From Elusimicrobiota bacterium (lineage in GTDB: Bacteria; CG03; SLGR01; PWQF01), in NCBI GenBank assembly GCA_003557485.1, contig PWOI01000117.1, positions 1 to 19,691 on the forward strand: a DNA stretch of 19,691 bases, given 5' to 3'. Position 1 is the first letter of the stretch. Each line of letters opens with the position of its first letter. Below the pieces are notes generated by a model. That model saw only the letters and a program-made list of their open reading frames with translations, was not told where the DNA came from and did not search any database. Both the position numbers and the translations under genes were made by a program. Of the stretch, positions 2,522 to 19,081 are shown one piece after another.

Positions 2522-3823
2522 ATGATTGAATTTAAAATAAAGCCGGAAAATACAGAATTTGTTTTACTCTCTTTTGAGGGCCCAGACGATTATGCACTGG
2601 CAGGCGGGCTGGGAACAAGAATAAGAGGGTTAAGCAAAAACCTGGCCAAGATGGGGTATATCTCCCATCTTTTTTATATAGGGGACCCCTATCTTCCAGG
2701 TTTTGAAACTAAAATGGAAGGGAAACTTAACATATACCGCTGGTGTCAGTGGATCAGCAGGTATTATCCCGGAGGAGTTTATGACGGAGAGAATGATAAA
2801 TTAAGAGACTTTGACGGGACTGTGCCGCGCTTTGTCGCAGAAAATATAGTAAGACCCGCGGTGATGAAAAGAAAGCTTGTAGTTGTCATGGCGGAAGAGT
2901 GGCACACCGCCCAGGCCGCAATCAACTTAAGTGACTATCTTCACAATCTGGGTATAAGGGACAGGGTTGTCATACTCTGGAACGCCAACAATATTTATTC
3001 ATTTCACAGGATCAACTGGGGAGCCCTGGGATTTACCTCACAGATTACAACTGTCAGCAAATATATGAAGCATGAAATGTGGAAATACGGCCTCAACCCT
3101 ATTGTTATACCTAACGGTATCCCTGATAATTTTTTAAGGCGGCATAGTTTAAGCGGAAGGCGAAAAGAACTTCATGAGAAAACCGGCGCTGATATGATAC
3201 TTCTGAAAGTTGGCCGCTTTTCACCCGACAAGAGATGGCATATGGCGATAAGAGCCCTGGCAATACTGAAAAACATGGGAAGAAAGGCCTTTCTTATTAT
3301 GAAAGGAGGAGACGAACCTTTCGGAGGCGAAGTTTTCCATGAAATACGGCAGCTGGGCTTGACTGTCAGGGATATTAACCTTGACGAGCATACAATAGAT
3401 AACTTGCAGAAAAAGATACTTGAAGGCCCTCCGGCAGATATTTATAATGTCCTGCAGTTTATGCCGGAAAGTATGCTTAAACCGCTCTATTCTGAGTGTG
3501 ACGCTGTTCTTGCAAACAGCGGACACGAACCTTTCGGTCTTGTTGGGCTTGAAGTTATGGCATGCGGAGGTATACCGTTTCTAGGATCAACGGGTGAAGA
3601 CTACGCAATACCTTTTAAAAATTCAATAGTACTGGAGACAGATGACCCTAACGAGATAGTGTCGTACCTGGAATTCCTTTACAGAAGGCCTCTAAGGAAT
3701 ACGGAAATAAGGAAAATGGCGAAGTCCACAGCCAGAATGTATACCTGGAAGAATGTAATCCAGGGAAACCTGCTGGCCAGGCTGCTGCAGATAAAAGAAA
3801 CAAAAGGAGTAAAACATGAGTAA
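2522..3823 (+). CDS. GT-B glycosyltransferase, GT4/GT5-like (glycogen-synthase-like)
   Basis: The 433-residue soluble protein has the two-Rossmann GT-B layout. The N-terminal half carries GGLGTR (28-33), which resembles the donor-contact loop of glycogen synthases, and a hinge region around IPNGIP (196-201). The C-terminal half carries VGRFSPDKRW (230-239) and an EX7E motif, E336-PFGLVGL-E344, typical of retaining transferases that use nucleotide-sugar donors. It is therefore most likely a retaining alpha-glucosyltransferase making or extending a glucan in the cytoplasm. Donor (ADP- or UDP-glucose) and product cannot be read from sequence. It is slightly shorter than classical GlgA. Its last 8 bases overlap the next gene, a GH57 amylase, and a good promoter sits just upstream, so the two form a transcription unit. 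Its ribosome-binding site is weak. Confidence 0.78.
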   Translation: MIEFKIKPENTEFVLLSFEGPDDYALAGGLGTRIRGLSKNLAKMGYISHLFYIGDPYLPGFETKMEGKLNIYRWCQWISRYYPGGVYDGENDKLRDFDGTVPRFVAENIVRPAVMKRKLVVVMAEEWHTAQAAINLSDYLHNLGIRDRVVILWNANNIYSFHRINWGALGFTSQITTVSKYMKHEMWKYGLNPIVIPNGIPDNFLRRHSLSGRRKELHEKTGADMILLKVGRFSPDKRWHMAIRALAILKNMGRKAFLIMKGGDEPFGGEVFHEIRQLGLTVRDINLDEHTIDNLQKKILEGPPADIYNVLQFMPESMLKPLYSECDAVLANSGHEPFGLVGLEVMACGGIPFLGSTGEDYAIPFKNSIVLETDDPNEIVSYLEFLYRRPLRNTEIRKMAKSTARMYTWKNVIQGNLLARLLQIKETKGVKHE

Positions 3824-5024
3824 CAATTTAACAATCTACACAATAATACACCAGCCGCAGAGAGTACGGCTCCCTGCCCGTGAAATCCCTGAAAATGCCG
3901 GCATACGGGAACTGGATAAATATATCTTTGATGATGATATGAATAAGTATTATCTCCATAAGGTCGCAAACGAATGTTATTTCCCCGCTATGAAAATGTT
4001 TAAAAAACTTATGGACGGAGGATTTAAAATTTCGCTGGGCCTTTCGGTATCATTTATTGAGCAGGCAAAAAGCTGGAATAAAAAGCTTTTCAATGAACTT
4101 AAACAGTTTGTCTCTCATAAAAACCTGGAACTTATATGTGTGGAACCCTATCACAGTTTCATTTTTTATTTTGATATAGAAATGTTTATAGATAGAATGA
4201 AATGGGCTAAAAACTACCTGGAAAAAACTTTTTCAAAGGAAATAAAAATTACTGACACAACAGAAATGTTTATGTCAAATGACGTTTACTTCGCGCTTCA
4301 GAAAGCCGGTTTTGATGCCTCTTTTCTGGACGGAAGAGGGTGGGTCCTTGAGTGGAGGGAGCCTACACATCTCTATCACCAGAAGGGCCAGAAGATGAAT
4401 CTTCTTGCAAGGCATTTAAATTTCAGTGATGATGTCGGATACCGCTTTTCAAACAGGAGTTGGCCGGGCTGGCCGCTCACCGCTGACGCATATGCTCACT
4501 GGCTAAAAGAGGCGGCCGGAGATTTCATAGTTCTGGGATGGGATTTTGAAACTTTCGGAGAACACCATAAAAAGGATACCGGTATTTTTGATTTCATGGA
4601 ACACCTGCCCGGTGAACTGGACAAGCGGGGTATAAAAACACTTACACCAAGCGAAACCGTAGCTAAATTCTCAAAGAAAAGTCATCCTATGGAAGTTAAA
4701 GAATTCGGCTCAACCTGGGCAGGCAGCGGCGGGGTAGAGTTTTTTCTTGGAAATGCCGCCCAGCAGGCAATTTTCCGCCTGATGCATCACGTTGTAAATA
4801 AAGCTAAGCTCACAGGTAAAAAGACACTTATTGACCTTGCAATGAGGCTTACGCAGTCCGATAACCTTCATCTTATTCAGTGGGCCGGAAGATATGGCGA
4901 AGAAGCGGAAGTATCCGCCTACTTTACACCTTCACAGTGGTGGCAGCTTGGACCTGACAGGCTCCTCATTGAGCATCAGCGGGTCTATATTAATTTCCTG
5001 AAAGCAATGGACCGCTTTATTTAG
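3816..5024 (+). CDS. GH57 family alpha-amylase-type glycoside hydrolase, short form
   Basis: The 402-residue protein has the GH57 (beta/alpha)7-barrel hallmarks: the HQP motif at 12-14, NECYFPAM at 52-59, the nucleophile segment ITDTTEMFMSND with E150, and the acid/base segment VLGWDFETFGEHH with D243. Both catalytic carboxylates are present, so it is probably active, hydrolysing or rearranging alpha-1,4-glucans in the cytoplasm; no signal peptide is visible. The ATG at 3816 lies inside the end of the glycosyltransferase gene (8-base overlap) and is preceded by AAAGGAG at a good distance, which indicates translational coupling. The pair synthase-like GT plus GH57 amylase suggests joint glucan synthesis and trimming. 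Its stop codon overlaps by 4 bases the stop region of the convergent GH57 gene on the other strand. Confidence 0.85.
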   Translation: MSNNLTIYTIIHQPQRVRLPAREIPENAGIRELDKYIFDDDMNKYYLHKVANECYFPAMKMFKKLMDGGFKISLGLSVSFIEQAKSWNKKLFNELKQFVSHKNLELICVEPYHSFIFYFDIEMFIDRMKWAKNYLEKTFSKEIKITDTTEMFMSNDVYFALQKAGFDASFLDGRGWVLEWREPTHLYHQKGQKMNLLARHLNFSDDVGYRFSNRSWPGWPLTADAYAHWLKEAAGDFIVLGWDFETFGEHHKKDTGIFDFMEHLPGELDKRGIKTLTPSETVAKFSKKSHPMEVKEFGSTWAGSGGVEFFLGNAAQQAIFRLMHHVVNKAKLTGKKTLIDLAMRLTQSDNLHLIQWAGRYGEEAEVSAYFTPSQWWQLGPDRLLIEHQRVYINFLKAMDRFI

Positions 5025-5032
5025 GAAAGCGG
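5012..5032. other. Inverted repeat spanning two overlapping convergent stop codons
   Basis: CCGCTTT (5012-5018) and AAAGCGG (5026-5032) flank a 7-base loop containing TTAG (5021-5024), which supplies both the + strand TAG and the - strand TAA. It could be a bidirectional 3'-end hairpin, but neither strand has a following T-run. Confidence 0.3.
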
Positions 5033-7144
5033 CTGGATAGTATAATCAAGTCTCAGATTGAATTCCCCTCCGGATGGGATCTCAGGCTGAAAGACCGGCA
5101 TCATACATGAGGACTGGTATGAGAGTTCAAAACCTTTTTCGGAATTAGATACAACCCTGACGGGGTAATACCATAGGGAGCATTCCCTGTCAACTTGAAT
5201 AACGGTTTTATATTTTCCCGGGCCGTCATATACTCCGAAAGACCGGATGTTTTCAACGCATCCGGTTTTATCAAGAGCTGCAGTTTCGTCATCCAGAATA
5301 TATTTCTTTTCATCTGATTTGTCGGTAAGCATAGCAAAATTAAATTCAATACCGTAATTTGGAGAAATGACATCTGAAGAAATATTTTTGAGGCTTATAT
5401 GTACTGAAAACTCCCGTTTCCCTTCTTCAACAGTAATTAATTTCAATGATTTTAAGCGATCAGTCAGCATTGATTCCATAATAGCAGTTATTTTACCGGG
5501 GGCCTCTTTCACCTCAATGGAGCAGGGCATGGCACGGAAATTTTCATAGTCCTGGTGTATAAAATTTTCAAGAGAACTACCCGGCGGCATAATATGTTCA
5601 ATCAGGCTCTTACGCATATATTTGTCAAAATGCAAATACTCTGTGAATTTTTCAGTGCCGGAGGCTTTGATGTCGTGTATAGATTCAATTCCGTCCTTTT
5701 TTGCATCACCGGTATTACTCTCATTCTCTTGTAATATTTCGTTGTGATATGTTTCCTTTCTACGGGCAACCGTATCCAGGTGATTTATCGATGTGATTTT
5801 GTCCGATATATCCTCAATCATACCTCCCTTATAAGGAGAAACGCATAAGAAAAGGCTATCTGTGTTCAGAAGAAGCTCATCTTTTCCGTCACAATCCAAA
5901 TCAGTAAGATTATATTCTACAAATTTTTCTTTATGTGCAGTGGAATCAAGAATTTTGTGGAGCCTGATTAAATTTGAGTGAACCGCAGACCTCAGGTGCG
6001 GAAGATATATTCCTCCGAAAACCCCGTGCCAGTACGAGCAGTTACATTGAGACCTGTAGAGAAAATCACGGGCTTTTTCCAGAGAGGCGGGATCAGTAAA
6101 ATCACTTTCTCTCTGCTGAAGCAGATGTGAAAGGTAAAGCATCTTTTTGTTTGTATAGTTTGATTCAGGATATTTCGCAAAATAGTTCCTCCAGATTCCT
6201 CCTGCAAGGTAGGGTTCAGTTTCTTCAAGCAGTCCGCAGTCAGTAAGTCTTTTTTTCAGAGACTCTACCTTAAGTGCTCCTTCCGTCGGCATAGACCACT
6301 CCTTCATTTCATAATACTGGCATGCCGGAAGGCATACTCTCCCAAGAGGGCTATTTGAATCGTAATATTCAGAAAGGGTCCTCATTTTAATCCAGGAAGA
6401 ATTATCTTCAAGAGCTTTAAAAAAATTTTCAAGCCATCCTTTCTCGTGCACCCATTGTTTTGTATTGGGCCAGACACCAAATTTTTCACCGTCATCAAGC
6501 ATACAGAGGAGAGGTTTTTCAGACTGCCTGGAAACCTTCCGAAAACAATCTATAATTTCGTTGACCGGCTTGAAGGGAATATAGTACCTTAGGGTTTTGT
6601 TTATTATAAATAGACCCAGTTTATTCCCGCAGTCCTCGGTTAAATAGTATCCTGTAAGCCTCTCGGGCAGGAAACCCGCCTGTATAAAATGAGTGTCATC
6701 AACAGCCAGGTATTCTGCGCCTGTCCCGTTGAGAAGGGAGGGCAAGTGGGGTTCCCAGACCCTTTCAGTTAGCCATATTCCCCTTGGTTTTACATTAAAG
6801 TGTTTAATAAGAAATTTCTCTGTTTTCTTTAATTGACCGGAAATATCCTGCTTTGGTATGGAAGTCAGCACCGGTTCATAAAACCCTCCACCCAGCATTT
6901 CAATTCTACCTTTGTCAATTTCATTCTTTATCTCCTCAAGAAATCCTGAATGGTTTTCCTTGAAAAAATCAAGAAGAGGGGAAGTTATATGAAGGTTAAG
7001 CTTGAGGTTTTTATAGTTTTTAAAGCTTTCAATAATGGGTTTGTATGCGTCGCGATAGGCATTTTCAAGTATTCTTTCAAAATTTCCTACCGGCTGGTGA
7101 AAATGAAGCCCAAAAATAAAATCAACGGAACTCTCAGTTTTCAT
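5021..7144 (-). CDS. GH57 4-alpha-glucanotransferase / alpha-amylase with DUF1925-DUF1926-type C-terminal domains
   Basis: The 707-residue protein matches the long GH57 glucanotransferase architecture of the Thermococcus type. The N-terminal barrel has GLHFHQPVGNF (12-22), GGGFYEPVL (85-93), WLTERVWEP with the nucleophile E127, and MLDDGEKFGVWP with the acid/base D218. Relative to the published T. litoralis residues E123 and D214 both are offset by four, which supports the alignment. The beta-rich remainder would hold the DUF1925 and DUF1926 domains, including a DLDCDGKDEL segment near the start of the latter that may bind metal. It would transfer maltodextrin segments between alpha-1,4-glucans in the cytoplasm. 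The gene follows the phosphorylase-like gene with an 11-base overlap and no clear ribosome-binding site, so it probably depends on translational coupling. Confidence 0.85.
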   Translation of the reverse strand: MKTESSVDFIFGLHFHQPVGNFERILENAYRDAYKPIIESFKNYKNLKLNLHITSPLLDFFKENHSGFLEEIKNEIDKGRIEMLGGGFYEPVLTSIPKQDISGQLKKTEKFLIKHFNVKPRGIWLTERVWEPHLPSLLNGTGAEYLAVDDTHFIQAGFLPERLTGYYLTEDCGNKLGLFIINKTLRYYIPFKPVNEIIDCFRKVSRQSEKPLLCMLDDGEKFGVWPNTKQWVHEKGWLENFFKALEDNSSWIKMRTLSEYYDSNSPLGRVCLPACQYYEMKEWSMPTEGALKVESLKKRLTDCGLLEETEPYLAGGIWRNYFAKYPESNYTNKKMLYLSHLLQQRESDFTDPASLEKARDFLYRSQCNCSYWHGVFGGIYLPHLRSAVHSNLIRLHKILDSTAHKEKFVEYNLTDLDCDGKDELLLNTDSLFLCVSPYKGGMIEDISDKITSINHLDTVARRKETYHNEILQENESNTGDAKKDGIESIHDIKASGTEKFTEYLHFDKYMRKSLIEHIMPPGSSLENFIHQDYENFRAMPCSIEVKEAPGKITAIMESMLTDRLKSLKLITVEEGKREFSVHISLKNISSDVISPNYGIEFNFAMLTDKSDEKKYILDDETAALDKTGCVENIRSFGVYDGPGKYKTVIQVDRECSLWYYPVRVVSNSEKGFELSYQSSCMMPVFQPEIPSGGEFNLRLDYTIQPLS

Positions 7145-8804
7145 TCAGCATTTGAAGCGCTTTAAGATAGAAATCAGAGGCATAATCCTTTGCCATCTCG
7201 TCTATAGTCATTGTCATTCCTGCCTTATAAGAATTATACATCAGCTTTTTATAGATGGTATTTTTTCCTTCAATACAATCATAGTAGAGGCGGGAAGCTG
7301 TTTCAAGCTTTCGGTAAAGTGTTCTCGGGTCATAAGGATCAAGGAAAAAAGCTGATCCCTCTCCGGTTTCAGGATCGATTTCGGAAAGATATTCTCTGGC
7401 TCCTCCAGTAAATGTCGAGATATTTATATTACCGTTCATTGCTGCGCGCTGATCACTTGTACCGCAGGCTTCAAGGTCTTTTATTGGGCAGCTTACCCAT
7501 ATGTCGCAGCCTCTTGCCCCGTGGAGAAGAAGATCCTGGCCGTACCCGGGAAGAAAAGCAAATCTGCCGGCAAGTTTTTTATCCTTTGTCCAGTTAACAA
7601 AGTGGTGGAGCCATTCCTGTCTTTCGTTATCATCGGGATGGGCAATACCTGCAACAAAAACCTGCATCCCCAGTCCGTCAAGTTTTCCAAATGGAGTATC
7701 GACTTTTTCACCCCGGGGAGCACATAGCGCCCATACAATATCTTTGAGCATCGGAAACTGCTGTTTATACCCGGCCAGTCTCCTGAAAAGACCGGCAGTC
7801 GGTTTGTTAATATCAAAGGAGACAGTCATTCCAAGGTGGTTTTTAAGTCTCAGGGCGGCGTCTTCAAGCGCCTTTTCTTTACAGGAATGATGTATTTCCC
7901 ATAAACTTTCCGGAGTTACTTCGTGAGAATTTCTCAACTCTTCAGCCTGCCAGTACAATGACGAACCGTTAGTTATACCGCATATTTTATCTCTAAAGGT
8001 CAAGAACATATTTTTGGTGACCTCTCCGTGCTCTTTCGAGACGCCGTTTGTCAGTGAAGATATTTTCAGCGCTGCAAGAGTAAAATCAATTACTCCGGAC
8101 TCGTTAAACAAACTTTCGTACTTTTCGCCTAAATCCATACTGCCGAACCAACTCTGGTCATATTTTTCCATACCTGCCGGAACGGGAGTATGTGTAGTAA
8201 AAAGAATAGGGATATTCCTGTATTCCTCTATTTCCTTTATGTAGCATGCGGCGGTTACCGTGTGAGCTTCGTTTAAGTGAATAAAATCAATATGAAGGTT
8301 TATTGCGCTCATTAACTTCGGAACAGCTTTTCCGATGACAACTTCCTGCCTGAGCCTCTTTTTTCTGTCACCGGTGTATAGAATATCAAAAACATCGTCA
8401 TTCTTGAGCAAATATACCTTTACGCCGTTTCGCATAATGCTGTATATATTAACAGGGTAGATCCGGCCTTCAAAATCAACATCAATTACAATAGGCTGGC
8501 CGTCGCTATTTTTTTCTTCTTCTACCGGCTCACTGCTGTAATCAACTTTTTTAATTTCAATATGCTGCCTGTTTTTTGATATTTTCTGAATCCAGGTGTC
8601 GGAGTACATAGGTATAACTGCTGCAACATCCAATCCGATATCATCCAGTCCTTCCATTGTATCGCCGGCAAGAACTCCAAGGCCTCCCTTAAAGTTTGCG
8701 GATCTTGCCTCCGAGTTCATCTCGGGGAAGAGCATTTCCATACTTAAATAGAGAATCTTTTTGCCTGCAAGCTGCGGCGTGTTTTCTTCAATCCACTGAA
8801 CCAT
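7134..8804 (-). CDS. Short alpha-glucan phosphorylase-like protein (GT35 type) with Arg in place of the PLP-binding Lys
   Basis: The 556-residue protein shows GT35 hallmarks: YLSME (19-23), GGLGVLAGD (40-48), FTTHTPVPAG (202-211), NGVSKEHG (253-260), RRLAGYKQQ (341-349, where R342 and K347 fit the phosphate-site Arg and Lys) and EACGTS (445-450). The family motif EASGTSNMK or EACGTSGQK ends in the lysine that carries pyridoxal phosphate. Here the segment is EACGTSDQR, so R453 replaces it. FVAGIAHPDD (383-392) also has Ile where GKAHP has Lys. Classical phosphorolysis is therefore doubtful; it may be a glucan-binding regulator or a PLP-independent transferase. The length fits the short archaeal/thermophile group. 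The ATG at 8804 has AAAGGA upstream. It precedes and overlaps the GH57 glucanotransferase gene. Confidence 0.75.
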   Translation of the reverse strand: MVQWIEENTPQLAGKKILYLSMEMLFPEMNSEARSANFKGGLGVLAGDTMEGLDDIGLDVAAVIPMYSDTWIQKISKNRQHIEIKKVDYSSEPVEEEKNSDGQPIVIDVDFEGRIYPVNIYSIMRNGVKVYLLKNDDVFDILYTGDRKKRLRQEVVIGKAVPKLMSAINLHIDFIHLNEAHTVTAACYIKEIEEYRNIPILFTTHTPVPAGMEKYDQSWFGSMDLGEKYESLFNESGVIDFTLAALKISSLTNGVSKEHGEVTKNMFLTFRDKICGITNGSSLYWQAEELRNSHEVTPESLWEIHHSCKEKALEDAALRLKNHLGMTVSFDINKPTAGLFRRLAGYKQQFPMLKDIVWALCAPRGEKVDTPFGKLDGLGMQVFVAGIAHPDDNERQEWLHHFVNWTKDKKLAGRFAFLPGYGQDLLLHGARGCDIWVSCPIKDLEACGTSDQRAAMNGNINISTFTGGAREYLSEIDPETGEGSAFFLDPYDPRTLYRKLETASRLYYDCIEGKNTIYKKLMYNSYKAGMTMTIDEMAKDYASDFYLKALQMLNEN

Positions 8805-9350: not shown

Positions 9351-10937
9351 ATGGAAAGAAACGTAATCATTCACGGTCATTTCTATCAGCCGCCAAGGAA
9401 AAATCCGTGGAGCGGTCTGCTTGGAAAGCAGGCAGGCGCTTCTCCCGCTGACAACTGGAACGAGCGCATCCTCAATGAATGCTACATGCCTAACACAGAA
9501 GCCCGTATCAATGAAAGCGAAACAGCAAACAACTACGAATTAATTTCCTTCAATATGGGCCCCACGCTCTCTGGCTGGATGGCAGAAAACTATATAGACA
9601 TATATAAAAAGATAATCTCAGCCGATAATCTATCAGGCGGGGCGGCAGCTCTCCCTTACAACCATACAATTCTTCCTCTTGACAACGAATTTATAAGAAA
9701 GATTCAAATATCATGGGGAATCCAACACTTTGAATTAAACTACTCAAGACAGCCTGAGGGTATGTGGCTTCCCGAGTGTGCTGTAAACTACGATGTAATA
9801 GATGATCTGGTGAAAGCAGGAATTAAATATATATTTCTCACACCCGGACAGGCTGAAGCGATAAAGAGAATAAACGGGTATCACTGGTACGATGTTTCTG
9901 ACGGCTCTATAGATGTAAGAAGACCCTACAGGCTTTTCAGCCACAGCGGATATTTAGACGTTTTTTTCTCAAACCAGGAGCTTGCGGTCGATTTTTCATT
10001 TAGAAAGATTCTGGATAATCCGGCAGGCGCAGCGGAAAAAATAGAAAAAATGTTCGGACACAAGCATGCCGAGAACCTGGTGCTGAGTATAGTAACTGAC
10101 GGAGAAACTTTCGGACACCACCACAAAGGAGCAGAAATCGGCCTTGTAAAACTTATAAAAGAGGAACTTCCGGCGAGAGGGATAAAAACGGTAATGCCTT
10201 CAGATTACATAAGAGGCAGAAAACTTGAATGTGAAGTAAAAATAAAAAACAACTCTTCCTGGTCCTGCGTTCACGGAGTCAAGAGATGGATGGAAGATTG
10301 CGGATGCGGAACAGAAGACGGAAGCAATCTGAAATGGAGAAAACCGCTCAGGGAAGCAATAGACTGGCTTGGAAAAACAATAATTGACATTTTCGTTGAG
10401 AAATCTGCCGGATTTTTTAATATTCCGGTTTTAGAGGCTGCCTCTAACTTTGGAAGGGTTATTTCAAACCCTTCAATGCTTTCCGACTTTCACAACAAAT
10501 TTGTCAGGGATGAATTCAGAAACAGCATTACCGTAAACAAAGCTATAGAGCTTATGCATTTTACATGCTATATGTTTACATCGTGCGGCTGGTTTTTCGG
10601 CAATCTGAAGAGGCTTGAGCCGGCTCAAAACATCTCGGTAGCTCTAAGAGCAATAGAAATACTAAAGGACCTTTGGGGTTTAGACCTTGAGCCTGAATTC
10701 TATGCAAAGCTTAATCAGCATGAAGACGCAAAATTCGTATGGGACAATATGGTTATAAAAAGAAAAAAAGAGCCTTATGCAATAGCAGAAGAATTTATGA
10801 ACATTTATAAATTTACCGGAATAAAATGCGATCACCGGGGATACTGGCAGATGGAGATTGTCGATAAAAATCCTTCTAAAAAAATAAAAATGCAAAATTC
10901 CAAAACCGGAGAGGTTTTTGAATTTGAGATAAATTAA
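9351..10937 (+). CDS. GH57 glycoside hydrolase with DUF3536 C-terminal domain
   Basis: The 528-residue protein opens with IHGHFYQPPR (7-16), the GH57 entry motif of this subgroup. The nucleophile segment is GMWLPECAVNYDVID with E142, and the acid/base segment is SIVTDGETFGHHHKG with D250. The region after about residue 290, with WSCVHGVKRWMEDCGC and FTCYMFTSCGWFF, fits DUF3536, which accompanies GH57 in cyanobacterial and other bacterial proteins; known members are often longer than this one. The exact reaction of this subgroup is not settled; alpha-glucan hydrolysis or transfer in the cytoplasm is likely. The ATG is right because the conserved N-terminal motif starts within a few residues. 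No ribosome-binding site is visible and the promoter lies directly upstream, so translation probably starts on a nearly leaderless message. Confidence 0.82.
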   Translation: MERNVIIHGHFYQPPRKNPWSGLLGKQAGASPADNWNERILNECYMPNTEARINESETANNYELISFNMGPTLSGWMAENYIDIYKKIISADNLSGGAAALPYNHTILPLDNEFIRKIQISWGIQHFELNYSRQPEGMWLPECAVNYDVIDDLVKAGIKYIFLTPGQAEAIKRINGYHWYDVSDGSIDVRRPYRLFSHSGYLDVFFSNQELAVDFSFRKILDNPAGAAEKIEKMFGHKHAENLVLSIVTDGETFGHHHKGAEIGLVKLIKEELPARGIKTVMPSDYIRGRKLECEVKIKNNSSWSCVHGVKRWMEDCGCGTEDGSNLKWRKPLREAIDWLGKTIIDIFVEKSAGFFNIPVLEAASNFGRVISNPSMLSDFHNKFVRDEFRNSITVNKAIELMHFTCYMFTSCGWFFGNLKRLEPAQNISVALRAIEILKDLWGLDLEPEFYAKLNQHEDAKFVWDNMVIKRKKEPYAIAEEFMNIYKFTGIKCDHRGYWQMEIVDKNPSKKIKMQNSKTGEVFEFEIN

Positions 10938-14996: not shown

Positions 14997-16007
14997 ATGA
15001 GTATGCAAAAAATTACAATTAAAAAAATAGCTAAATTAGCCAATATATCCACTGCGACCGTTTCCAGGGCTATTAACAACCCTGAACTTGTTGCAGAAGA
15101 AACCAGGCATAAGGTTATGGAAATTCTCCATAAATATGACTATACGCCAAACCATCTGGCAAAAGGGCTTGTAAGCGGAAAATCCCAGACTCTTTCTCTT
15201 CTGACTCCAAAAGAAGGCAATTTTTTCAATGCCTTTTATTTCAGAGAAACCTTCCTCGGCATAACAGTATCGGCAGCAAGCCGGGGATACAATATTCTTA
15301 TAGACCAGTCTCTGACTCAGACAGGGGATATTATAAAAAGCCGCTTTCCCGTAGACGGATATATAATAGTATCTCCTTCGGAAGACGACCCTTTTGTCAA
15401 AAAACTGGAAGAGAAAAAGTTTCCGGCGGTACTTGTAAACAGAAGGTCATCCAGTTTGAGCTGGGTTGATCTTGACAACCAGGCAGCGGCCGAAGAAGCT
15501 GTAAACTATCTCATTGATCAGGGACATACTGATATTGTTGCAGTTGCCGGAAAACGAAACGTTAAAAACTCTTGCGATAGACTTCAGGGATACAAAAGTG
15601 CTCTGAAAGTAAACGGTATATTATATAATGAGAAATATGTGATATATGGTGACTTCAGTGAAGAAACAACATATATTGAACTGAAAAAACTTCTCACAAA
15701 AAATGAAAACATTACCGCAGTTTTTGCTTTCAACGACCTTATGGCAATTGGGGCAATGAAAGCAATAAGAGAATCAGGAAAAAAACTGCCGCGCGATATA
15801 TCTGTTGTAGGCTTTGACGATATGCCCCCTGCCTCCTACATGTCACCGTCCCTGACAACTATCCGTCAGCCATTCTATCTTATGGGATATCAGGCTTCCA
15901 GGTTTCTTATTGATATAATTGAAAAAAAAGACCAGGCTCCTTTAAAACGTGAATTTGAAGGAGAGCTGGTATTACGGGGATCAGCCGGACCTGTTTTAAA
16001 AAAATGA
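14997..16007 (+). CDS. LacI-family transcriptional regulator, likely autoregulated
   Basis: The 336-residue protein begins with a LacI helix-turn-helix: [21 protein letters not shown] (about 7-27) and a hinge PNHLAKGL (51-58). A periplasmic-binding-protein-like effector domain follows (about 62-332), with [23 protein letters not shown] near its C-terminal end as in sugar-binding family members. It would bind a sugar and release DNA. The palindrome on its own promoter indicates self-regulation, and the downstream envelope genes would follow because they are coupled: the next ATG overlaps its stop in an ATGA. Either the ATG at 14997 or the one two codons later (15003) could be the start; neither has a clear ribosome-binding site. 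The effector cannot be read from sequence. Confidence 0.88.
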
Positions 16008-16597
16008 AAAACGCATCCGGCCCAGTTTTTATTTTTTTGTTCTTTTTATTTCTTGCGGCTGGATGCATGAGACAGGACAACAATAACATTCTGACTTTGC
16101 CGGCCGCAAAATATATAGTATTAGCTAATTTTGATAACATCGGAAAGGATATTGTGGATACCTGGAATTATATACCTGATTCCCTTGAGACTTCGATCCA
16201 GGCGGAAATAGAAAACAAGATTCTTAAAATAACATACGATGTTATTTCAGAAGATTATACATGCAACGGAATTTCACTGGACCTTGGAGGCAAAGATTTT
16301 TCGTTATACAAAACGCTTCTTATAATAGCAAAAGGAGACAGAGCCGCAGGTTTTCCGGAAATTCTGACCCTTGAGATGTTTAATAAGGAGAGAAAGCTTA
16401 ATACTTTTTTTCTGAGCGGTTTGACGGAAAGGTGGAATACTTTTGCGGTGCCTATTAAAAAATTCGGCGTATTATCCGAACTTTCCGATTTACAGGAGTT
16501 TAGGGTTGTTTTTTGTTCTCGGAATACGGTTCCGGGAACAGGTGTAGTATATATAAAAGGTGTTTATCTCGAAAAGAGAAAGGAGAGTGCTTTATGA
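16004..16597 (+). CDS. Lipoprotein with CBM11/CIA30-like beta-sandwich domain (divergent copy 1)
   Basis: The 197-residue product has a lipoprotein signal, [21 protein letters not shown], with the lipobox LAAGC ending at C21. Residues about 36-193 form a beta-rich domain that begins VLANFDNIG, contains NGISLDLGGKDFSLYKTLLI and LSGLTERWNTFAVPIKKF, and ends in VVYIKGVYLEK. The same order of motifs recurs in the next three genes, of which this is the most divergent. The pattern resembles carbohydrate-binding CBM11/CIA30-type galactose-binding-like folds, so it probably binds a glycan at the envelope; this assignment rests on pattern resemblance only. It is translationally coupled to lacI upstream and to the next gene downstream through 4-base ATGA overlaps. 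Confidence 0.68.
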   Translation: MKNASGPVFIFLFFLFLAAGCMRQDNNNILTLPAAKYIVLANFDNIGKDIVDTWNYIPDSLETSIQAEIENKILKITYDVISEDYTCNGISLDLGGKDFSLYKTLLIIAKGDRAAGFPEILTLEMFNKERKLNTFFLSGLTERWNTFAVPIKKFGVLSELSDLQEFRVVFCSRNTVPGTGVVYIKGVYLEKRKESAL

Positions 16598-17202
16598 AAG
16601 CGACACTTGCAGTAGTTATTGTATCAGCTCTGGCAATTTTCACCCAGGGATGTGCAAAAGAGGTTGCTGCCCCCAGGGAGGCAGCTCCGGCAGAAGATGT
16701 ACTGATGATAGCAAATTTCGATGCCGGAAGCGCACCGAACATGCTGGGGGGCGGCATAGGCGCATGGGACCGTGATCCTGCTGATCCTACCCAGGGTGCG
16801 GAAGCTTACTTTGACTCTAATGTCAGGGTTGGCAACAGAGGGTATTCTTTACGAATTGAGTATGATGTAGATTCCCCCAATCCGGCCTTTAACGGAATAT
16901 GGATGAAACTTGAAGGCGCAGATTTTTCGGATTATTCACATCTTGCTCTTTCAGTCAGGGGTGATGCCGTCGCAGGATTTACCGAAAGGTTTAAAATTGA
17001 ACTCAAAAACGCTGCAGGAGACTCTGGAATGTATATGCTTTCCGGTGTCAGTGACAGCTGGCAGGAGTTCACTATTCCTTTGAACTCTTTCAGGGGACTC
17101 CGCGATTTTTCACGTATGGATGAATTCGTTATCGTTTTCGAAGACGCGGTCGCCAACCCCAAGACTGGTGCTATTTACATTGACAATATCTATGTAAAAT
17201 AG
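16594..17202 (+). CDS. Probable lipoprotein with CBM11/CIA30-like beta-sandwich domain (copy 2)
   Basis: I chose the ATG at 16594 because AGGAG (16581-16585) lies 8 bases upstream and the product then starts with a signal sequence, MKATLAVVIVSALAIFTQGC; earlier in-frame starts read through the previous gene. C20 sits in an imperfect lipobox (TQGC). The domain spans about 36-202: MIANFDAG, GAWDRDPADPTQG, YDVDSPNPAFNGIWMKLEGADFS, GFTERFKIELK, DSWQEFTIPL, DEFVIVFED, and the terminal IYIDNIYVK. It is close to the C-terminal domains of the next two genes and lacks their LysM part. Glycan binding at the envelope is likely but inferred. It is the third gene of the LacI operon. Confidence 0.72.
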   Translation: MKATLAVVIVSALAIFTQGCAKEVAAPREAAPAEDVLMIANFDAGSAPNMLGGGIGAWDRDPADPTQGAEAYFDSNVRVGNRGYSLRIEYDVDSPNPAFNGIWMKLEGADFSDYSHLALSVRGDAVAGFTERFKIELKNAAGDSGMYMLSGVSDSWQEFTIPLNSFRGLRDFSRMDEFVIVFEDAVANPKTGAIYIDNIYVK

Positions 17203-17253
17203 GAAATTTGCCGGATTTTTCTATATCCATCTGAAATCCGGATTATTATTTCC
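17202..17253 (+). other. Nested inverted repeats between two operon genes
   Basis: An inner stem CCGGATTT (17211-17218) / AAATCCGG (17234-17241) lies inside an outer stem GGAAAT (17202-17207) / ATTTCC (17248-17253). The strong ribosome-binding segment AAGGAGGG (17256-17263) follows just outside. No T-run is present, so it is more likely an RNA processing or stabilising structure than a terminator. Confidence 0.4.
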
Positions 17254-17268
17254 GGAAGGAGGGTTACT

Positions 17269-18135
17269 ATGGAAAGAAGAAGTGTTTTGCTTGCCGGATT
17301 ATTTGCTATTGTAAGTTTTTCTTATGTGTATTGCTCCGAAACTAAGTATGAGATAATAACGGAAAAGCTTACTCGCCAGCTTTTTTCTCTGGCAGATACG
17401 CAGGAACTGGTAATTGAAAAGTATAAAGTCCAGCGAGGGGACACTATGCTGGAAATAGCAAGAAGGAAATATGAGAATCCTTCTCTTTGGAAAGTTATAG
17501 CCAGATTGAATCCGCAGATAAGTAACCCTAATAGGATAAATCCAGGTGACATTCTGAGTGTTCCGGTGGTGGTTGAAAGGCAAGCAGACACACCACCGGC
17601 TACACCAGATTCTCCGAAAACAGATGCAGCGGCACTTAAGATATCCAACTTTGATTCAGGAGCCCATAAAACCCTGCTGGGTGATGTTTTCGGCACATGG
17701 GACAGAGACCCTAACGACCATACACAGGGATGCGTAATGGTGTTCGCCGAAGGAGTGTCTTCCAGAGACAAAGGGACTTCTATAAAGCTTGAATACGACG
17801 TTGATTCTCCGAACCCGGCCTATAACGGATTCTGGATGAAACTGGGCGCAAGGGATTTTTCCACGTATTCTTCATTTTGTTTTTCTGTCAAAGGGGATTC
17901 GACATCCGGCTTTACAGAAAAATTTAAGGTTGAATTGAAAAACGGATATGGACAGATAGGGACCTATATGGTTTCGGGTATTACTGACGAATGGAAAGAA
18001 ATAGTAATACCATTTGAATATTTTAGGGGATTAAGAAATCTAAATAACATAGATGAATTTGTTATTGTTTTTGAAGATTCCGTAGCACGGCCGAAAGAAG
18101 GCGCTATTTATCTTGACAACATATATGTAAGATAA
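17269..18135 (+). CDS. Exported LysM protein with C-terminal CBM11/CIA30-like domain (copy 3)
   Basis: The 288-residue product starts with a signal sequence (about 1-22; a Cys at 22 is a possible lipidation site but the box is poor). A short helix, EIITEKLTRQLFSLADTQELV, leads into one LysM domain at about 52-99: YKVQRGDTMLEIARRKYENPSLW..NPQISNPNRINPGDILSVP. LysM binds peptidoglycan or other N-acetylglucosamine polymers. After a Pro/Thr linker (about 103-122) the beta-sandwich domain (123-288) repeats the motifs of copy 2: GTWDRDPNDHTQG, YDVDSPNPAYNGFWMKLGARDFS, GFTEKFKVELK, DEFVIVFED, and terminal IYLDNIYVR. It would tether a glycan-binding head to the cell wall. The ribosome-binding segment AAGGAGGG is the strongest in the window. 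Confidence 0.78.
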   Translation: MERRSVLLAGLFAIVSFSYVYCSETKYEIITEKLTRQLFSLADTQELVIEKYKVQRGDTMLEIARRKYENPSLWKVIARLNPQISNPNRINPGDILSVPVVVERQADTPPATPDSPKTDAAALKISNFDSGAHKTLLGDVFGTWDRDPNDHTQGCVMVFAEGVSSRDKGTSIKLEYDVDSPNPAYNGFWMKLGARDFSTYSSFCFSVKGDSTSGFTEKFKVELKNGYGQIGTYMVSGITDEWKEIVIPFEYFRGLRNLNNIDEFVIVFEDSVARPKEGAIYLDNIYVR

Positions 18136-18208
18136 ACTGGAATGAAGACACGTCTTTTTTAGTTAGGTATTTAATGAAGTTGTATTCTTTAATGTACAGG
18201 TACTTTTT

Positions 18209-19081
18209 ATGAAAAAATATTTATTACTTTTAATATTCTGTTTTTTACTGCTTGAATGCCGTATTCCTGTTTTTTCGGGATACAATGAGAGCAAAATAAT
18301 AACAGAATCTTTAATAAGGGACATTTTTGATCTTAGCGAAAACCAGGAGCTTATTGAAAGCGAATATGAAATACAGCCCGGAGACTGGCTTCTGAAAATA
18401 GCTGAAAAAAAGTATGGTGACGGGTCATTGTGGGAGGCGATAGCATTATTTAATCCCGAAATATCAAACCCCAATTTAATATCACCCGGAGATGTAATCA
18501 GAGTTCCTAAAATAATTGAAATTGAGCCTGAAGTTATTAAAAAACCCGTTGAAGATCCTGTTGAAACTGAAATGCCGGATATTCTTGAAATAGCCAATTT
18601 TAATTCCGGGTTTGAAGAAAATTTACTTGGAGGGGCTTTCGGCGTATGGGATAAAGATCCAGACGACATAACACAGAGCTGCAGAATGGAATTCGAGAGA
18701 AACATTACTTCAACAGGATACGGTTATTCCCTTAAGCTTATATATGATGTAAATTCTCCTAATCCGGCTTACAATGGTTTCTGGATGCATCTCTTAGGGG
18801 CAGATTTTACTCCGTATAGTTTCCTCTACCTTTCTGTAAAGGGTGAGCCTGATGCCGGTTTTACAGACAGATTTAAGATTGAGCTTAAAGATACTGAAGG
18901 AGTATCCGAAAGTTTCATGCTGGATGGGATAACAGCAAGGTGGCAGGAAAAACGAATTCCTCTTGCTTTTTTTAAAAATATTGACATGTCTTCGGCAGGT
19001 GAGTTTGTTGTTGTTTTCGAGGACCAGGTATCGTCACCGAAAACAGGGATTATATATCTGGATAATATCTATGTTAAGTAA
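18209..19081 (+). CDS. Exported LysM protein with C-terminal CBM11/CIA30-like domain (copy 4)
   Basis: The 290-residue product is a full-length paralogue of the preceding gene. It has a signal sequence (about 1-23, with C17 a possible but non-canonical lipidation site), the same pre-LysM helix (ESKIITESLIRDIFDLSENQEL) and LysM at 53-100 (YEIQPGDWLLKIAEKKYGDGSLW..SNPNLISPGDVIRVP). An acidic/Pro linker (about 103-123) precedes the beta-sandwich (124-290), with GVWDKDPDDITQS, YDVNSPNPAYNGFWMHLLGADFT, GFTDRFKIELK, EFVVVFED and terminal IYLDNIYVK. It lies 73 bases after copy 3; its ribosome-binding site is weak. A short AAGAC/GTCTT dyad before a T-run lies in the gap (18145-18160), too small to call a terminator. 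Role as for copy 3: cell-wall-anchored glycan binding, inferred. Confidence 0.78.
   Translation: MKKYLLLLIFCFLLLECRIPVFSGYNESKIITESLIRDIFDLSENQELIESEYEIQPGDWLLKIAEKKYGDGSLWEAIALFNPEISNPNLISPGDVIRVPKIIEIEPEVIKKPVEDPVETEMPDILEIANFNSGFEENLLGGAFGVWDKDPDDITQSCRMEFERNITSTGYGYSLKLIYDVNSPNPAYNGFWMHLLGADFTPYSFLYLSVKGEPDAGFTDRFKIELKDTEGVSESFMLDGITARWQEKRIPLAFFKNIDMSSAGEFVVVFEDQVSSPKTGIIYLDNIYVK

Follow-up and report, generated by a model that had tools for sequence, protein, structure and literature searches.

The window analysed here, a stretch of 19,691 nucleotides, encodes on its minus strand (7134-8804) a GT35/GT5-like protein, GT35-R, in which the lysine that carries pyridoxal phosphate (PLP) in GT35 phosphorylases is replaced by an arginine shared by a whole clade of relatives. 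Our tentative reading is that GT35-R would be a working retaining GT-B alpha-1,4-glucan glucosyltransferase without Schiff-base PLP, with NDP-glucose as the preferred guess for its donor; we infer the activity, the absence of PLP, the donor and the role of Arg453 alike. The protein was classified through TIGR02094, PF08323, the orthologues of its order and its clade, and its reading frame is unbroken over 556 codons (556 amino acids). An earlier note on this DNA had described an intact gene in a glucan operon, and both the frame and the glucan-enzyme neighbours agree with this.

The motif EACGTSDQR (residues 445-453; 7446-7472, minus strand) corresponds to the PLP-attachment motif, except that Arg453 (7446-7448) replaces the lysine of the Schiff base. 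In the alignment this arginine falls on the PLP lysine of a solved GT35 enzyme, the Segatella copri glycogen phosphorylase 9l6i (EASGTSGEK), which bears out the central claim of the earlier note, a missing PLP lysine within 7434-7481. The note had also reported the loss of a second family lysine, that of GKAHP; the lysine is indeed absent, but the numbering shifts by one, since the replacing residue in GIAHP (residues 386-390; 7635-7649, minus strand) is Ile387 and residue 386 is Gly. Translation and alignment uphold the retention of the N-domain glycine loop GGLGVLAGD (residues 40-48; 8661-8687, minus strand) and of EACGTS, and the phosphate-binding dyad common to GT5 and GT35, Arg342/Lys347, is kept under the same numbering within RRLAGYK (residues 341-347; 7764-7784, minus strand).

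To place these substitutions, 101 proteins were aligned: 77 "alpha-glucan family phosphorylases", six classical glycogen phosphorylases, eight members of the window clade, two domains of giant proteins and eight GlgA. Position 453 is lysine in all 77 of the first group and all six of the second, methionine in both giant-protein domains, isoleucine or tyrosine in the GlgA sequences, and arginine in the eight aligned clade members, as in all nine clade proteins. Position 387 is lysine in 76/77 and 6/6 of the lysine-bearing GT35 proteins and isoleucine, phenylalanine or methionine in the window clade. Only three lysines are invariant or near-invariant among the 83 lysine-bearing GT35 sequences, namely 347, 387 (82/83) and 453; GT35-R lacks the latter two, both also missing in GT5, and keeps K347, which is invariant in GT35-R, GT35 and GT5. 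The lysines common to the eight aligned clade members are 190, 264, 273, 334 and 347, with K159, K309 and K519 in seven of eight. None that is invariant in these eight lies within residues 410-470, and no other lysine takes the PLP position, a substitution that the earlier note had considered. The glycine loop (GGLG), HTP, the Arg/Lys dyad of RRxxxYK, E445 and the GT loop (EACGT) are invariant across very divergent clade members; C447 has the GT5 state, as do T466 and G468 in the proteins of the order.

Five further genomes of the order carry orthologues with 58-78% protein identity, and the public records of these genomes bear the submitter labels Elusimicrobia or Sumerlaeota; with the window's own, the order contributes six proteins. 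All the order's orthologues read EACGTSDQR, with the arginine encoded by CGC, CGG, AGA or AGG. Three more distant proteins, from two other bacterial families (genomes G294, G386 and G157), read EACGTSGMR, GMAHP and RRIVDYKNQ, and the GKAHP lysine is absent from all nine proteins. The clade sharing arginine for which the earlier note had proposed an alignment thus exists and spans the order and two other families. Because the arginine persists at 58-78% identity despite differing codons, and also in the three distant proteins, it is not a sequencing error, and its retention through CGC, CGG, AGA and AGG indicates that the arginine itself is kept by selection. An attempt to estimate dN/dS found synonymous sites saturated between the orthologues. 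The G386 protein is truncated by a contig end. The proteins of G294 (L138, residues 1-330) and G157 (L139, residues 1-250) have about 250-330 extra N-terminal residues, which had no Pfam match and by eye resemble two tandem beta-domains.

Searches of 386 and 290 genomes (partly overlapping sets) yielded no further members, so the clade is rare. Viral contigs held no relative of GT35-R, and the plasmid matches listed were confined to ordinary glgP at 27-30% identity. Among the open-access papers searched, none describing such lysine-less GT35-like proteins was found.

Against TIGR02094 the window protein scored 212.9 bits, above the cut-off of 191.7, some clade members falling below it (180 for G002). 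It also exceeded the cut-off of PF08323 (Glyco_transf_5; 61.5 bits against 22.7) and had no match to PF00343 (Phosphorylase) at E 0.001. PF08323 matched all eight R-type proteins scanned, and PF00343 three of the eight, weakly. Within alignment A4, composed of 13 lysine-bearing and six R-type sequences, PF00343 matched 14/19 and PF08323 8/19; by subtraction, with all six R-types matching PF08323, the latter is found in two of the 13 lysine-bearing members and PF00343 in all or nearly all of them. A GT5 HMM built from 22 synthases gave full-length scores of 41-64 bits for R-type proteins, 52-59 for R2, a median of 12 for lysine types (highest 54.9) and about 0 for classical glycogen phosphorylase (GP). 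With its N-half the separation was complete, every R-type protein (24-52) scoring above every lysine type (maximum 17). The glgA profile TIGR02095 gave the window protein 62 bits, far under its cut-off of 328.45, and the lysine of the GT5 N-terminal KxGGL motif is absent from it, Phe38 standing at the aligned place.

The AlphaFold model of the window protein (pLDDT 92.7) had its best VIA-align match in E. coli GlgA with ADP (2qzs; Z 33.9, 445 residues, 2.9 A), with starch synthases also at the top; phosphorylases reached Z 27-32 over more residues (best Z 31.9 over 522). As VIA-align Z depends on target length, a lysine-bearing protein equal in length, its model built from the same sequences, served as control, the open or closed conformation of the models being left free. 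Its first 50 VIA-align rows were all phosphorylases, and of the two models compared, the shift towards synthases is specific to the lysine-less protein. Foldseek alone ranked phosphorylases first for the window model. Such a structure search compares folds, not donors.

In glycogen phosphorylase the chemistry is done by the PLP phosphate and not by the Schiff base. GT5 enzymes work without PLP, both phosphates coming from NDP-glucose, and in phosphorylases the place of this diphosphate is filled jointly by the phosphates of PLP and of the substrate; for this reason NDP-glucose is preferred here as the donor. In the mechanism we propose, the donor, with nucleotide-diphosphate glucose as the most likely candidate, would have its phosphates clamped by R341/R342 and K347 and its glucose held by E445, and Arg453 would fill the PLP anchor spot and may add positive charge for the donor. 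With the diphosphate-binding dyad and E445 retained but no PLP lysine, a GT35-like protein would most simply be a PLP-free NDP-glucose glucosyltransferase. Several observations count in favour: exactly the two GT35-only lysines are missing and the GT5-shared K347 is kept; the profile is GT5-like (PF08323, GT5 HMM), and VIA-align matches GlgA where the control matched phosphorylases only; C447, T466 and G468 agree with GT5; and the arginine is conserved through codon changes. Phe38 at the KxGGL lysine and 62 bits against a glgA cut-off of 328 speak against this reading, as does the Foldseek ranking. Of the roles that the earlier note had offered, a PLP-independent transferase is the one that the profile and structure comparisons favour most.

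Judged by its gene content, the GT35-R locus is a conserved alpha-glucan-handling cluster. Downstream of GT35-R lies a gene for a GH57 alpha-amylase/4-alpha-glucanotransferase (5021-7144, minus strand; PF03065, PF09094, PF09095); its first bases overlap the end of the GT35-R gene, with 11 bases shared in the window, four (ATGA) in locus L043 and about 31 in L042. A divergent GH57 gene with DUF3536 (9351-10937, plus strand; PF03065, PF12055) has the same position and orientation in L043 and L042, where it was recognised by sequence likeness. Convergent with the GT35-R/GH57 pair, another GH57 family gene (3816-5024, plus strand; PF03065) adjoins a GT4-type glycosyltransferase gene (2522-3823, plus strand; PF00534, PF13439). 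Both are present in L042 too, but in L043 they do not adjoin the GT35-R/GH57 genes, which are followed by diguanylate cyclase and ROK genes instead. The window has both of these gene types as well, and also a glucoamylase-like gene. Elsewhere in the window (16004-19081), four consecutive proteins resemble one another in a C-terminal stretch, which is CBM11-like in the two that were scanned; one of the four (17269-18135) has a LysM domain by Pfam, and the next is similar to it in sequence. The four may represent a tandem-duplicated, secreted-looking carbohydrate-binding family.

GlgA is present in five of the nine R-type genomes, and the window's own genome probably holds a normal glycogen synthase as well, given a GlgA C-terminal fragment at a contig end (L141, G000:C152:2-232). 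GlgC (ADP-glucose pyrophosphorylase) was not found in the genomes of the order (G000, G001, G002, G003, G005 and G007), which makes ADP-glucose doubtful as a donor. Three of these genomes have GlgA despite this, and the glycogen synthase of the order may use another nucleotide sugar.

Both the neighbourhood and the glycogen genes bear on the strongest rival, which we regard as possible though somewhat doubtful: a PLP-free phosphorylase that converts alpha-1,4-glucan and phosphate to glucose 1-phosphate, with PLP bound non-covalently or with no cofactor, and replaces MalP/GlgP beside the GH57 glucanotransferase. The malPQ genes are a phosphorylase/glucanotransferase pair, and by analogy the gene overlap seen here would fit a phosphorylase. 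No lysine-bearing GT35 was found in the nine R-type genomes, whereas seven genomes from a different part of the phylum do carry such a protein (EASGTGNMK in those inspected); this absence fits a phosphorylase role too, but it comes from drafts, some 76-88% complete, and from few independent lineages. With GlgA already in several R-type genomes, and a likely fragment in that of the window, a second synthase is not needed. TIGR02094 and Foldseek group GT35-R with phosphorylases, and a phosphorylase whose chemistry is done by the PLP phosphate might do without the Schiff base. A precedent is provided by GT4, where retaining trehalose phosphorylases exist outside the PLP family GT35 (PMC8950772). 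Against a phosphorylase stand the loss of both GT35-specific lysines in every member and the greater closeness of GT35-R to GT5, by profile and VIA-align Z, than that of its lysine-bearing relatives. The selected non-phosphorylase role suggested in the earlier note therefore stands in part: selection on the arginine, the clade, the catalytic frame and the glucan cluster speak for a selected role, and "non-phosphorylase" is unproven in view of the malPQ-like pairing and the GT4 phosphorylases (PMC8950772).

A catalytically dead glucan-binding or regulatory protein, such as the glucan-sensing subunit also proposed in that note, is improbable. An ordinary PLP phosphorylase would lose its activity without the cofactor lysine, and the cluster contains other glucan enzymes, but nothing positive points to sensing, and a sensor would not be expected to retain a whole donor site, invariant here from the glycine loop and HTP through the Arg/Lys dyad to E445 and the GT loop. 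An ordinary PLP phosphorylase holding its cofactor on another lysine is very improbable: the frame is phosphorylase-like and the C-domain has the invariant lysines K334 and K347, but K347 is the phosphate-binding lysine found in GT5 too, and residues 410-470 offer no clade-invariant candidate.

A second lysine-less GT35-like domain, reading EASGTSFQM, was found in giant proteins of the window's genome (L009, G000:C199:1-3826) and of G005 (L140, G005:C7). Like GT35-R, these domains lack both GT35-specific lysines, and they lie near it in the tree; unlike it, they have methionine for arginine and sit in hosts of well over 1,000 amino acids. Their matches to PF08323 and PF00343 are alike weak. 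GT5-like domains were also seen in giant open frames of G002 (L137, G002:C25:44893-46119; 13,409 codons) and G005 (G005:C3:4767-6332; 2,581 codons), both relatives of the window's genome whose giant proteins have glucan-synthase-like parts.

In trees with a GT5 outgroup, the R clade and then the giant-protein branch fell outside all lysine-bearing GT35 (support for the lysine-bearing side 100/99, and 95 in a second tree). With the lysine-less proteins towards GT5 in two trees, absence of the lysine would by parsimony be ancestral. However, an alternative tree with GT5 beside classical GP was not rejected (AU p 0.45 and 0.2) and the diagnostic columns on the root were tied, 3 against 3, so that the root is insecure and both ancestral absence and later loss stand. 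When classical GP was left out, a tree constrained to unite the R clade with the giant branch had a higher likelihood than the unconstrained quick tree, so all lysine-less sequences may form one group; a placement of GT5 inside the lysine types was not rejected in this data set either (p 0.26). R and R2 formed one clade with support of 98/89 in one tree and of only about 75 and 67 in quick trees. A further reading, which we consider rather unlikely, is that the lineage of GT35-R and of the giant-protein domains diverged before PLP was taken up by glycogen phosphorylases, which would make them living PLP-free intermediates between GT5 and GT35; if true, it would show how a B6 cofactor replaced a nucleotide.

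The lysine-less branch bears on how glycogen phosphorylase gained B6, and its position nearer to the NDP-sugar synthases makes the question of the donor testable, whether nucleotide sugar, free phosphate or loosely held PLP. For this branch, the automatic label "alpha-glucan family phosphorylase" (TIGR02094) can mislead.

Among known systems, the GT35 short alpha-glucan phosphorylases (TIGR02094; 9l6i) have about 26-31% identity to GT35-R over its length and share with it the motifs GGLGxLAGD, HTP, TNG..W, RRxxxYK and EA[SC]GTS. GT35-R differs from them in lacking the PLP and GKAHP lysines and in having YKQ, YKN or YKK for YKR, and in the proteins of the order the LDGWW loop of GT35 is replaced by TGGAREY. 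With GT5 GlgA (2qzs) it shares PF08323, the absence of lysine at 453, E-x-C-G with its cysteine, the Arg/Lys dyad and the TGG loop; it differs in its structural identity of 18%, in missing the glgA cut-off, in the absent KxGGL lysine and in reading EACGTS for the EPCGLxQ of GlgA. In PLP phosphorylases, the PLP phosphate gives a proton to the substrate phosphate and takes one from it (PMC11046441). GT4 trehalose phosphorylases and GT35 are both thought to use a front-side mechanism, and the former, set beside GT35-R by description, offer a precedent for retaining phosphorolysis outside GT35, in another family and on another substrate (PMC8950772).
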